Position numbers and translations under genes: made by a program. A DNA stretch of 29,172 bases from a virus: positions 1 to 29,172 of IMG/VR virus record IMGVR_UViG_3300012919_000028; one strand, given 5' to 3'. The notes below the pieces were generated by a model. The model was not told the origin of the DNA, made no database searches, and saw nothing but the letters and a program-made list of their open reading frames with translations. Positions 5,059-25,142 of this stretch are shown in pieces. How positions within the stretch are numbered: the first letter of the stretch is position 1; the number at the start of each line of letters is the position of its first letter.

Positions 5059-5535
5059 ATGCCGAAGAAGAAGTCAGAGCATTATGTAAATAACAAGGAG
5101 TTGCTAGAAGCATTGATTGTTTATAGGGCAAAGGTTGCTAAGGCTGCAGATGAGGGAAAACCAAAACCACGGATCACAAATTATCTTGGATCTTGTTTTT
5201 TAAAGATTGCAACACACCTGTCATATAAACCAAATTTCGTTAATTATATGTTCCGTGATGATATGATATCAGATGGTATTGAGAATTGTGTACAATACAT
5301 CCATAATTTCGATCCAGAGAAGTCTCGTAATCCTTTTGCATACTTTACCCAAATCATACACTATGCCTTTCTGAGACGCATACAGAAGGAGAAGAAACAA
5401 TTAGATATTAAAAATAAGATTATTGAGAAGACAGGATTTGATGAAGTGATGACTGTAGAAAGTGGTGCATTGACAGGAGCAATGTCGGAGTATAATACAA
5501 TTAAAGACAATATTGCACAGAAAAAGAATAGATGA
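5059..5535 (+). CDS. gp55: gp55 late sigma factor
   Basis: The product is 158 aa (T4 gp55 is 185). It shows the region-2-like core of T4-type late sigma factors: YMFRDDMISDGIENCVQYI, then NFDPEKSRNPFAYFTQIIHYAFLRRIQKE, the part that binds core polymerase and the -10 element. The N-terminus is basic and the C-terminus is a short helix. gp55 directs host RNA polymerase to TATAAATA promoters together with the gp45 clamp, also encoded here. It has its own sigma70-type promoter and overlaps gp47 by 4 bases. Confidence 0.93.
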   Translation: MPKKKSEHYVNNKELLEALIVYRAKVAKAADEGKPKPRITNYLGSCFLKIATHLSYKPNFVNYMFRDDMISDGIENCVQYIHNFDPEKSRNPFAYFTQIIHYAFLRRIQKEKKQLDIKNKIIEKTGFDEVMTVESGALTGAMSEYNTIKDNIAQKKNR

Positions 5536-12389: not shown

Positions 12390-12990
12390 GGAGGTCTTAC
12401 ACAACACTATCGCACTTCATAACGGAGTCGATAGTGTTTGGGCCGAGTGGGAGTCAAAGGGGATGACTCTTTTAGCAAAGACCTACACTAATCAGTATCT
12501 GATTAAGTCAAGAGAGGTTGAGATATGGAGTGATAAGTGTTGCATCTACAATAACATTCTTTATCCAAAAACAGGGAGTAATCTCCCTTGTTTTGGTATG
12601 GATTTGATGGGGTTTAATGAGAAGAGAGTTATCATTGTATTTGACTTTCAACATCCTGTAGAGAACTATAGATTCTCTGTTGATGGATTGCCAAAGAGTG
12701 AAGGTGATTATCGTTTCTTTGAAGTAGGGAATCATTTCTCAGATAACATTTATGTTGCTAAATGCGAGATGAAAGATGTGAATGATCACCTTGAAATGTT
12801 TACAACCTACTTGACTAAGTACAAAGACATGCTAGAATTAAAGAAACCAACTGGTAAAGATACTAGTGAATATAAAGACTTTGATTCTTACATGACCAGA
12901 CTCGATCCAGTAGCAGGTTTTCTCACTGGTAAGTTTGGGAAAGAAAAAGCAGAGAGTCTTGTAAATGATTTTTTATTCAATTATGGTTAA
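12367..12990 (+). CDS. pebS: Phycoerythrobilin synthase-like bilin reductase
   Basis: The product is 207 aa from ATG 12367, which has an AAGGAG site upstream. It matches the ferredoxin-dependent bilin reductase PebS as I remember it from cyanophage P-SSM2: NNILYPKTGSNLPCFGMDLM, FDFQHP, NYRFSVDGLP, FFEVGNHFS and LDPVAG. The catalytic aspartates fall at D79 and D180, the same 26-residue offset from PebS D105 and D206, so the protein simply has a shorter N-terminus. PebS reduces biliverdin to phycoerythrobilin in two steps with ferredoxin. It is translationally coupled to cobS. Confidence 0.9.
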   Translation: MNLWKQYKEVLHNTIALHNGVDSVWAEWESKGMTLLAKTYTNQYLIKSREVEIWSDKCCIYNNILYPKTGSNLPCFGMDLMGFNEKRVIIVFDFQHPVENYRFSVDGLPKSEGDYRFFEVGNHFSDNIYVAKCEMKDVNDHLEMFTTYLTKYKDMLELKKPTGKDTSEYKDFDSYMTRLDPVAGFLTGKFGKEKAESLVNDFLFNYG

Positions 12991-21882: not shown

Positions 21883-22938
21883 ATGGCAACACCATCAGAG
21901 TATTTTGAGAACGCTGATATTAATAATATCCCAGTTCCAGACTGGTCACATCTGGATGTTATCTCACCATCAACAGAACCCACTATAAGGTTGAATTGGG
22001 ATGATGTCTACATTGATGACATTGACGGAAACACGACTAAAGAAGAACCACATTCTGCAGAAGAAATTGAAGCACTTCGATTATCTTTTTCTGCAAAAGT
22101 TGATGAGAAAGAATATACACCTGCAGTAGTTTACAGAGGTAAAGCATATCTTAAACCTTGGAAACTTGTCTACGGATATGGAAGATCTGAGGCTCTTAGA
22201 TTATTAGGAACTAAGGGTTGGTTCTTTACTGTTCTCGAAGGAACAGAGGATGCACTTGAGGATGTGCAAGCACAAGAAAATGAAATGCTTCCGAAAAGAG
22301 TGAATGAGGAAGTTGATATGAGAAAGTTCCTCATAGGAAAAGTTAATGAAGGTAAGATAGAGAAAAATGTCGATGCGATCATAGCAAAGTTTAAAAAGGT
22401 ATATCCATACCGTAGAAAGGAGACTATGAATCGTGTGATTCCTCAAGTCTTAAAAGAGTTAAATGTTAAACTTCCGTACATACTCTACACCTCTGCACCA
22501 AAAGCTCAGGATTGGATTGATAACCACTCTAAAGAGGATTATGTTATCGGTGAATCATATGACATTGAACGTGGCATGTATGGAGTCCTTATGAAAGAGG
22601 GTTACGACTGGAGGGTTGTAATGAATGCAATGCAAACGTATGTCGAAACTGGTAAAAAAACATACGTTATTTGTCATTGTGGTGCACCGACTAAGAAACA
22701 AAACTTCTCAACAAAGAGAAAGAAAATCCTTGCAAGATTCAAGCATTGGGAAACAGTGTTTAAGCAAATGGGTGTTAAAGTTTTCCCAGTTGTTGTTTTG
22801 GGTGCATTACCACAAGATAGAAAGAATGATAACATGAAAGTATTAGTCACAATGGGTGACGATGCAAAAGAGGTATTAGAGGATACCGATGGTATAGATT
22901 CAACTCTTAATGTTGAGTACTCGTATACAGCAGCATAG
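21883..22938 (+). CDS. ParB/Srx-type N-terminal domain protein, 351 aa
   Basis: Residues about 65-140 follow the ParB-like nuclease domain pattern: EALRLSFSAK, YTPAVVYRGKAYLKPWKLVYG, GRSEALRLLGTKGW and VQAQENEMLPKRV, where ParB has GERRxRA and a final EN. The rest (about 160-340) is unique to the phage protein in my reading and ends in VVVLGALPQD and TMGDDAKEVLED. ParB-fold proteins bind or cut DNA and some hydrolyse CTP. The gene has its own strong promoter, an AGGAGA site and its own terminator, so it is a single-gene unit. Confidence 0.72.
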   Translation: MATPSEYFENADINNIPVPDWSHLDVISPSTEPTIRLNWDDVYIDDIDGNTTKEEPHSAEEIEALRLSFSAKVDEKEYTPAVVYRGKAYLKPWKLVYGYGRSEALRLLGTKGWFFTVLEGTEDALEDVQAQENEMLPKRVNEEVDMRKFLIGKVNEGKIEKNVDAIIAKFKKVYPYRRKETMNRVIPQVLKELNVKLPYILYTSAPKAQDWIDNHSKEDYVIGESYDIERGMYGVLMKEGYDWRVVMNAMQTYVETGKKTYVICHCGAPTKKQNFSTKRKKILARFKHWETVFKQMGVKVFPVVVLGALPQDRKNDNMKVLVTMGDDAKEVLEDTDGIDSTLNVEYSYTAA

Positions 22939-22944
22939 ATGATG

Positions 22945-22970
22945 GGGGGTAAATACTACCCCCTTTTTTT
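22945..22970 (+). terminator. Rho-independent terminator after the ParB-like gene
   Basis: GGGGGTA (22945-22951) pairs with TACCCCC (22957-22963) around AATAC, followed by seven Ts. Confidence 0.92.
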
Positions 22971-22981
22971 GTGTCTTATGG

Positions 22982-22989
22982 TATAAATA
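22982..22989 (+). promoter_or_regulatory. Late promoter, perfect TATAAATA, for hsp20
   Basis: An exact late consensus lies between the terminator and hsp20. The 5' leader contains an imperfect hairpin (TGTCGCC-TTC-GGGGACA, one mismatch) before the AGGAGA site at 23031-23036. Confidence 0.75.
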
Positions 22990-23042
22990 GTAGTGTCGCC
23001 TTCGGGGACAAAAACTAAACTCGCTTACATAGGAGAACTATT

Positions 23043-23471
23043 ATGAATGCTCTACAAAGATACCATGCTGCAAATCTTCCAGAATTGTTTGATAAGATTT
23101 CAAAGAACAGCATAGGATTAGATGATTATTTTGATCGATTTTTTAATGGTGATTTAAACCCCAGTTATCCACCATATAATCTAATAAACATTTCTAATCA
23201 TGAATCAAGATTAGAAGTTGCACTAGCAGGCTTTAAGAAGAAAGAAGTTAAAGTTTACACAGAGTATGGTAAACTAACAATTGAAGGTTCTAAAGAAATC
23301 AAAGAAGATACAGATTATGCACATAGAGGATTAGCACAAAGATCATTTACAAGATCTTGGACACTATCAGATGATACTGAAGTCAAAGATGTTAGTCTTG
23401 AAGATGGATTATTAACTGTAACACTTCAAAAAGTTGTACCAGACCACCATGCTAAGAAGGAGTATCTATGA
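23043..23471 (+). CDS. hsp20: Hsp20 / alpha-crystallin small heat-shock protein
   Basis: The product is 142 aa. The alpha-crystallin domain spans about 45-135 with SNHESRLEVALAGFKKKEVK, KLTIEGSKEI, FTRSWTLSDDTEVKDVSLED and GLLTVTLQK. Hsp20 is a core gene of T4-like cyanophages, assumed to hold unfolded proteins during infection or virion assembly. A strong AGGAGA site and a perfect late promoter precede it, pointing to late expression. Confidence 0.95.
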   Translation: MNALQRYHAANLPELFDKISKNSIGLDDYFDRFFNGDLNPSYPPYNLINISNHESRLEVALAGFKKKEVKVYTEYGKLTIEGSKEIKEDTDYAHRGLAQRSFTRSWTLSDDTEVKDVSLEDGLLTVTLQKVVPDHHAKKEYL

Positions 23472-23563
23472 AACTATTAACCCCCTTTAGCGTTATCAAA
23501 GATGCTATCAGTGATATCAAACGCACTAAGAAAAAAACTAATTGCAAAAAAGTAGTTCTATGA
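23468..23563 (+). CDS. Very small basic peptide after hsp20, 31 aa
   Basis: The frame runs from ATG 23468, in an ATGA overlap with hsp20, to TGA 23561-23563. The product is basic and partly amphipathic (LLTPFSVIKDAISDIKRTKK). Its 3' end overlaps the purM promoter. Coupling to hsp20 supports translation; function unknown. Confidence 0.5.
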   Translation: MKLLTPFSVIKDAISDIKRTKKKTNCKKVVL

Positions 23564-23569
23564 TATAAT
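23542..23569 (+). promoter_or_regulatory. Sigma70-type promoter for purM
   Basis: TTGCAA (23542-23547) and TATAAT (23564-23569) are 16 bases apart. The -10 box lies inside the left arm of the inverted repeat at 23563-23591. Confidence 0.6.
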
Positions 23570-23591
23570 AAGTTTATTGTACTTATTATAT
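23563..23591 (+). promoter_or_regulatory. Perfect 11-bp inverted repeat across -10 and start codon of purM
   Basis: ATATAATAAGT (23563-23573) and ACTTATTATAT (23581-23591) pair perfectly around TTATTGT. The left arm contains the -10 box, the centre matches the expected transcription start, and the right arm includes the A and T of the purM ATG. Confidence 0.75.
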
Positions 23592-24546
23592 GGATTACAA
23601 ATCATCTGGTGTAGATATCGAAGCAGGAAATGCTTTTGTAGATAGTATTAAAGATTCAGTCAAGTCCACTCACAGGCCAGAGGTCGTGGGTGGACTTGGT
23701 GGTTTCAACGGTATGATGAAAATACCTAAGAAATATAAGAAACCAGTATTAGTATCTGGTGCAGATGGTGTGGGAACTAAACTTGAAATTGCACAGATAT
23801 GGGATAAACATTATAACGTAGGTGTTGATTTAGTTGCAATGTGCGTGAATGATGTAATCACAAGTGGAGCAGAACCATTATACTTTTTAGATTATATTGC
23901 TACTGGTAAATTGCAGAAAGATAAATTAAAGGAAATAGTAGAAGGTGTTGTTAATGGATGTGTCATGTCAGGTTGTACTTTGATAGGAGGAGAGACGGCT
24001 GAGATGCCTAGTATGTACACCTCTATGAGATATGATCTTGCAGGTTTTTGCACAGGAGTTGTAGAAGAAGATGAGATAATAGATGGTAGTAAAATTAAAG
24101 AGGGTGATAAGATAATTGGTATTGCAAGTAGTGGGATTCATAGCAATGGTTTTAGTTTAATAAATGAATTGATATGGAGACATAAACTTGCATTTTTAGA
24201 CATACCAGAAATAGCCACACCTACACGTATCTACGCACCTTTAGTTAAATATCTTACAAAAAGAATTCCTATTCTTGGTATGGCACATATTACAGGTGGT
24301 GGTATTCCGGGAAACTTGCCAAGGTGTATGCCAAAAGGGTTGCAACCATTAATTGATTGGAACTCATGGAAGATACCAGATGTGTTTAACAAAATTATGA
24401 TAGCAGGTGATATATCAAAAGAGGAGATGTGGAGAGTTTTCAATATGGGAATTGGATATTGTATAGTGGTTTCTAAAGAACATGTGAATGATGCAATGAG
24501 TTTGATTGGAAACGATTGTTGGACAATTGGAGAAGTTGTGGTATAA
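23590..24546 (+). CDS. purM: AIR synthetase (phosphoribosylformylglycinamidine cyclo-ligase)
   Basis: The product is 318 aa, slightly shorter than bacterial PurM (about 345). It shows the family start DYKSSGVDIEAGN, the ATP-binding SGADGVGTKLEIA, GGETAEMP and the later GIHSNGFSL and ITGGGIPGNLPR. PurM closes the imidazole ring of the purine precursor AIR. The active-site blocks are intact. Its promoter and start codon are embedded in a long inverted repeat, and there is no clear Shine-Dalgarno site. Confidence 0.94.
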   Translation: MDYKSSGVDIEAGNAFVDSIKDSVKSTHRPEVVGGLGGFNGMMKIPKKYKKPVLVSGADGVGTKLEIAQIWDKHYNVGVDLVAMCVNDVITSGAEPLYFLDYIATGKLQKDKLKEIVEGVVNGCVMSGCTLIGGETAEMPSMYTSMRYDLAGFCTGVVEEDEIIDGSKIKEGDKIIGIASSGIHSNGFSLINELIWRHKLAFLDIPEIATPTRIYAPLVKYLTKRIPILGMAHITGGGIPGNLPRCMPKGLQPLIDWNSWKIPDVFNKIMIAGDISKEEMWRVFNMGIGYCIVVSKEHVNDAMSLIGNDCWTIGEVVV

Positions 24547-24547
24547 T
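24519..24547 (+). promoter_or_regulatory. Possible promoter for the Sm-like pair
   Basis: TATAAT (24542-24547) overlaps the purM stop; TTGGAC (24519-24524) is 17 bases upstream but a weak -35. TATAAT is mirrored by ATTATA (24561-24566) just before ATG 24569. Confidence 0.45.
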
Positions 24548-24568
24548 TAATATAGATCGTATTATAAA

Positions 24569-24877
24569 ATGGCTGTAAAACTTGCCCTTCTTCAATCGGG
24601 TGATCAAATTATTGCAGATGTGACTGAAGTATTATCAGGTGATAAGGCAGTTGCATATCTGTTTGAAAAACCACAAAAACTTAGTTACAATGCTCCTATT
24701 TTTTTAGAGCAGGATAAGGGTGGTGAAGCTTCAGTTGAAGTTACATTGTCTAACTGGATCACAGTTGCAGATGATGACAAAATTCCAGTAACACTTAATC
24801 AAGTTGTTGCTCTAGTTAATCCTATTAAGGATGTTGTAAACATGTATAACGCAAAGATCAATGCAGGAACAAATTAA
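24569..24877 (+). CDS. Sm-like (Lsm-fold) protein, 102 aa
   Basis: The product has the short barrel pattern shared with those at 24861 and 4524: LALLQSGDQIIADVTEV, then YLFEKPQKL, then SNWITVADDDK, then LNQVVALVNP and DVVNMYNAKI. Sm/Lsm proteins form rings that bind RNA or act as scaffolds. It is made from its own possible promoter and overlaps the next Sm-like gene by 17 bases, so two different subunits may assemble together. The fold is inferred from pattern. Confidence 0.68.
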   Translation: MAVKLALLQSGDQIIADVTEVLSGDKAVAYLFEKPQKLSYNAPIFLEQDKGGEASVEVTLSNWITVADDDKIPVTLNQVVALVNPIKDVVNMYNAKINAGTN

Positions 24878-25142
24878 ATGTCTTTTACTCAAGAATGGTG
24901 ATATCATCATATCTGAGATTATGGAAGTTGACACTGAACTCGGTGGCCCTGATTGTAAATTAATCAATCCAGTAAAGATGACTGAAGTTATCTCAAAAAA
25001 TAATAATAATGATTATGATATGGCATCATGGTTAGACTTTACTGCACAGAGTGAAATGATGATACATTCTGACAGTATCATGACAATAGTTGCTCCAACA
25101 TCTGCTATACTATCAAAGTATCTTGATGTGATTGCCCAATGA
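24861..25142 (+). CDS. Sm-like (Lsm-fold) protein, 93 aa
   Basis: It is a paralogue of the preceding gene: CLLLKNGDIIISEIMEVD, CKLINPVKMTEV, MASWLDFTAQSE, SDSIMTIVAPTS and ILSKYLDVIA follow the same order. It overlaps the upstream Sm-like gene by 17 bases and gp43 by 4, so it is coupled to DNA polymerase translation. Whether it binds RNA cannot be seen from sequence. Confidence 0.68.
   Translation: MQEQIKCLLLKNGDIIISEIMEVDTELGGPDCKLINPVKMTEVISKNNNNDYDMASWLDFTAQSEMMIHSDSIMTIVAPTSAILSKYLDVIAQ

Follow-up and report, generated by a model that had tools for sequence, protein, structure and literature searches.

An inverted repeat between the -10 box and the start codon of purM in a T4-like phage fragment: a possible block on read-through translation

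Introduction

Does the inverted repeat that joins the -10 box of purM to its start codon in a T4-like phage control translation, or is it a by-product of an AU-rich leader? Read-through hairpins are known in phage T4 for genes e (lysozyme), soc, 49 and I-TevI, where late genes are silenced in early or middle RNA and the effects have been measured (PMC3014915, PMC2988022). The original prediction proposed that the purM AUG would be hidden in mRNA read through from hsp20, and that mRNA made at the local promoter would lack the left arm. The window analyzed here is a whole virus record of 29,172 bases, a fragment of a T4-like (P-SSM2-like) phage in which the gene order (gp55, gp47/46, peptidase, cobS, gp45, gp44, gp62, regA, hsp20, purM, gp43) matches that of Prochlorococcus phage P-SSM2. 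In its phage replication region, the protein encoded at 18563-19696 matches Pfam DruA (Druantia; E 6e-10) as well as PHROG 19197.

Results and discussion

The 11-bp perfect inverted repeat predicted to run from the -10 box to the purM start was confirmed, with 11 of 11 positions paired around a 7-nt loop (Table 1). As the ATG occupies 23590-23592, the right arm includes the A and T of the start codon; the placement of the -10 box in one arm and the AUG in the other thus stands as originally described, and the transcription start, which had been assigned to the centre, would fall in the loop, as it is expected approx. 7 nt after the -10 box.

Table 1. Features of the window around purM and in the cobS leader
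Feature	Position	Strand	Remarks
Intrinsic terminator 5' of hsp20	22944..22964	+	
T4-late-type promoter of hsp20, TATAAATA	22982..22989	+	kept in relatives as TATAAATAG or TTAAATAG
hsp20	23043..23471	+	PF00011, PHROG 432
31-codon ORF MKLLTPFSVIKDAISDIKRTKKKTNCKKVVL	23468..23563	+	between hsp20 and purM; overlaps hsp20 stop (ATGA)
-35-like hexamer TTGCAA	23542..23547	+	16 nt 5' of -10 box; overlaps small-ORF coding
Possible outer helix	23552..23598	+	GUAGUUC (23552-23558) with GGAUUAC (23592-23598); read-through RNA
Extended -10 element TGATATAAT	23561..23569	+	TG 23561-23562, TATAAT 23564-23569; conserved
Left arm ATATAATAAGT	23563..23573	+	
Loop TTATTGT	23574..23580	+	7 nt; putative transcription start near 23575-23578, from -10 box position
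Right arm ACTTATTATAT	23581..23591	+	terminates in AT of purM ATG
purM (phosphoribosylaminoimidazole synthetase)	23590..24546	+	PHROG 1207
cobS leader dyad TTTCAGTTAT-AATAAGTAC-ATAACTGAAA	11235-11263		10-bp perfect; overlaps -10 box; ATG 11277

The claim that such a match is unlikely by chance was assessed with shuffled sequences, including the comparison around gene starts that the original prediction had called for. An 11-bp stem was present in 7 of 4000 dinucleotide shuffles of the 70-nt purM start region. Across the 31 gene starts tested, AUG-covering stems of at least 11 bp occurred in 3 of 300 shuffled sets, and AUG-covering stems of at least 7 bp were found at 3 starts as compared to 0.67 expected. 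For the window as a whole, 0.28 stems of 11 bp (loop of 3-20 nt) were expected and 2 were seen, the other one (653-678) being GC-rich with a terminator-like T run. The purM repeat is therefore unusual, with a chance of about 1% over all starts, but not astronomically so; the AT content by itself is enough for repeats of this kind to be not especially rare at any place in the window. Overall, the repeat is real and moderately surprising.

The promoter into which the left arm is built shows a broader distribution. TGATATAAT was invariant, approx. 20 nt 5' of the AUG, in 20 of 20 aligned purM leaders, which had been picked among those with a -10 box; more distant relatives (e.g. L114, L134 and L140) have no -10 box in this form. 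TTGCAA is also present in L007 and L120-L125. TGATATAAT coincides in part with the stop of the preceding gene: in the window its TGA ends the small ORF, which overlaps its neighbours with both its start and its stop and has similar counterparts in L004 and L007, while in most relatives that have no small ORF the hsp20 stop occupies the site, as read from the sequences. The purM leader in the window contains about 17% GC, and the local promoter is of the sigma70 type rather than T4-late (TATAAATA). Judging from the aligned leaders, the promoter-start module is firmly conserved, whereas the palindrome is not. An antisense or convergent promoter arising from the palindromic -10 box was also considered and was rejected on sequence inspection, as the minus strand has neither a TG extension nor a good -35 hexamer and the right arm is unconserved.

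Upstream, hsp20 is preceded by a T4-late-type promoter, and a similar layout of its leader is retained in distant relatives including P-SSM2. In the window this leader (22982-23042) contains TATAAATAG, a hairpin with a TTCG loop, CTCGCTTA and then GGAG. A terminator search of 22800-24900 found only the terminator 5' of hsp20, and thus no recognisable terminator lies between hsp20 and purM. A literature search on the timing of hsp20 and purM expression found no reports.

These features are compatible with a model in which purM would be transcribed from a compact sigma70-type promoter of its own, and this mRNA would have a leader of approx. 14 nt and no Shine-Dalgarno sequence. In the lineage of the window, this leader has acquired complementarity to the -10 stretch. 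Read-through RNA from hsp20 would hold both arms, which could pair in the cell as an 11-bp hairpin that covers the purM AUG. Transcripts of the local promoter would begin in the loop, without the left arm, because the left arm is the -10 region itself, and their AUG would be freer. purM would be translated mainly from these local transcripts and to a small extent from hsp20 mRNA, the promoter of which is late-type.

Predicted folds give this model partial support. The read-through leader of the window has a minimum free energy (MFE) of -8.9 kcal/mol as compared to a mean of -2.5 kcal/mol with shuffled spacers (p 0.002). At 37 C, the predicted probability that the AUG is unpaired was 0.14-0.17 in read-through RNA versus 0.44-0.46 in local RNA, but at 22 C the two values were 0.25 and 0.35, respectively, a difference small enough that the switch may be shallow. 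Over all purM leaders, AUG hiding showed no clear general effect (mean of 0.32 with read-through and 0.37 with foreign upstream sequence). The possible outer helix gave a z of -1.9, with 9 of 200 shuffles folding equally well and a different fold at 22 C. Rfam 15 models had no match in 22900-24900 at E up to 1. The proposed hiding of the AUG is supported in part, by the geometry, the MFE, the 37 C exposure and similar stems built from other letters in two relatives, and is weakened by the shrinkage at 22 C and by the lack of paired changes in relatives.

To compare relatives, purM leaders were collected by four viral-contig scans and covered protein identities from 100% to below 60%. Contigs with 89-97% purM identity share the 11-bp repeat unchanged, and it is absent elsewhere; the exact fold is recent and limited to the nearest relatives of the window (at least 89% protein identity). 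Between the window and L004, 0 of 27 leader bases and 29 of 115 fourfold sites have changed; as the first 60 nt of purM also differ at only 1 site, the identity of the L004 leader may be regional. The leader of L007 (80%), with 14 of 27 bases changed, forms ATAATAGT-AATA-ACTATTAT and additional pairs, in all a stem of 8 bp, a bulge and 5-6 further pairs up to the AUG (MFE against spacer shuffles, p 0.022). L110 carries a different 9-bp stem, ATTATATTA-GATAATG-TAATATAAT, which has a 7-nt loop and ends in the AT of the ATG. L138 alone has a terminator at this site, GC-rich and with T6, which lies between TGATATAAT and the ATG; its left arm is probably cut by the local transcription start. Most relatives have no AUG-covering stem. 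In short, the structure persists in the nearest clade, has formed anew in L007 and L110, and is absent in most leaders. Paired changes, which the original prediction expected in relatives, did not appear in the register of the window: RNAalifold found no common structure among the purM leaders, covariation in the fixed register beat letter shuffles but not some slid registers, and the AUG is predicted to be free in L120-L125.

We also performed a swap test, in which the promoter stretch of each lineage was joined to its own leader or to leaders of other lineages and stem lengths were compared. Own-lineage pairing exceeded cross-lineage pairing for purM (z 2.4-3.5) and cobS (z 2.5-5.2) in the several variants run, the permutations of which only partly remove relatedness, and 72 gp55 leaders showed no excess (z -0.6 to -1.0). 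Without the window clade, z for purM was 2.4; it was 2.1 when L138 was also left out and 1.5 after dereplication, which leaves a marginal general excess for purM (z 1.5-2.1) once both are set aside. For AUG-covering stems, the signal was gone without the window clade (z 0.2-0.6), which indicates that the AUG-hiding form belongs to the lineage of the window. A weaker tendency to form promoter-spanning dyads may be older than this lineage and is clearest at cobS, which retained z 3.3-4.3 in the reduced-set test.

As at purM, the arms of the cobS dyads, identified here in T4-like cyanophages, flank or overlap the -10 box and covary between lineages; both arms would thus be present only in read-through RNA. 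Among 54 cobS leaders the arms vary (e.g. TTTTGAT/ATCAAAA, TTTCGTTT/AAACGAAA and TTGATAT/ATATCAA), and own-lineage pairing still exceeds cross-lineage pairing. Unlike at purM, the right arm mostly stops before the AUG and many leaders have a terminator just upstream. A separate 10-bp perfect inverted repeat, AACACTATCG/CGATAGTGTT, lies directly after the cobS stop in the window (12403-12438). Most gp55 leaders (L307-L386) contain TG-N-TATAAT, many with TTGTCAAG upstream, and they have no excess of inverted repeats. A 7-bp repeat that reaches the ATG of gp55 (start at 5059) was rejected as chance, as it is absent in L307, the protein of which is 100% the same, and as the 72 leaders showed no excess.

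Compared to T4 genes e and I-TevI, purM in this T4-type phage shares a local promoter within the region of the 5' arm, and it is predicted to share a start hidden in long transcripts and released in local ones that lack this arm. The purM start codon lies in a predicted stem that requires upstream sequence, and local RNA would lack the 5' arm, as the left arm contains TATAAT and the putative start is in the loop. On the other hand, the hidden T4 genes have a local T4 late promoter, which in the case of gene e is TATAAATA, whereas the local purM promoter is of the sigma70 type and it is the upstream promoter that is late-type. T4 homing endonucleases have a consensus Shine-Dalgarno sequence; purM has none, and its stem is nearly all A-U. 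Moreover, the T4 effects were measured, while the purM hairpin is known from sequence and predicted folds. Tentatively, and with less than even confidence, we thus read the palindrome as a lineage-specific block, of the gene e type, on read-through translation of purM.

A palindrome formed by chance or by template switching is nearly as likely. The -10 form TATAATAA and an AU-rich leader that lacks a Shine-Dalgarno sequence would each be favoured for their own reasons and are near reverse complements, so that a chance change or a template switch could have completed the repeat. The low GC content of the leader fits this explanation, as do the absence of the repeat in most relatives and the chance level over all starts, which is not tiny given the many features scanned; in addition, template switching is reported to create and maintain hairpins (PMC8794818). 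It accounts less well for the other stems that L007 and L110 have gained at this position, and for the excess of own-lineage over cross-lineage pairing, which gp55 leaders, although equally promoter-driven, do not show.

The original prediction had also named a DNA operator. In this case the dyad, which runs across the -10 box and the start site, would be bound by a dimeric repressor or a host factor. It sits over the core promoter, and the cobS promoters of the same phages likewise have covarying dyads, but an operator should keep its arm sequences, which vary among lineages. An IMG/VR scan for a shared operator (TATAATAAGT N3-30 ACTTATTATA) returned 41 contigs, with copies at purM only in the clade of the window and the rest scattered. 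An operator is therefore not favoured, and we regard it as improbable.

It is quite improbable that the hairpin acts on the 3' end of hsp20 mRNA, by stabilising or terminating it, instead of controlling purM. The window has no terminator between hsp20 and purM, and L138 has a true one, with T6, at the site of the hairpin; however, in place of the G+C-rich stem and U run of an intrinsic terminator, the stem in the window contains a single G-C pair and is not followed by a U run, and most relatives have no strong stem.

Finally, the palindrome would be a side effect if the AU-rich leader were in part a RegA-type translational operator; a RegA homologue (PHROG 242) is among the proteins of the window, and the leaders of L117, L120-L122 and L124 carry, just 5' of the start, AUUGUUAUGUAA, which fits the T4 RegA SELEX consensus aaAAUUGUUAUGUAA (PMC3014915), but such an operator is very improbable, as the leader of the window itself lacks AUUGUUAUGUAA and the RegA operators of T4 and RB69, while AU-rich at the start codon like the purM leader, are described as unstructured, with the protein and not a hairpin blocking the ribosome. 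In the same five leaders, AUUGUUAUGUAA also forms an AUG-UAA that overlaps the start, as AUGUAAUG.

Conclusions

Together, the late-type hsp20 promoter and the sigma70-type purM promoter suggest an order opposite to that in T4. It is conceivable, though unlikely, that the gene e-type block on purM is a T4 timing switch in reverse, in which a sigma70-driven metabolic gene would be silenced late by the fold in hsp20 read-through RNA, and that T4-like cyanophages repeatedly evolve promoter-spanning dyads (purM, cobS) that shield a gene from upstream transcripts, with drifting arms and retained complementarity. If the gene e-type block on purM itself is real, it would widen the range of read-through hairpins, which in T4 act on late lysis and homing genes, by an early-type metabolic gene of a marine phage. 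It would also illustrate how timing is achieved without a terminator for a gene within a long operon. The comparison of cobS and gp55 provides a ready list of promoters for tests in cultured cyanophages.
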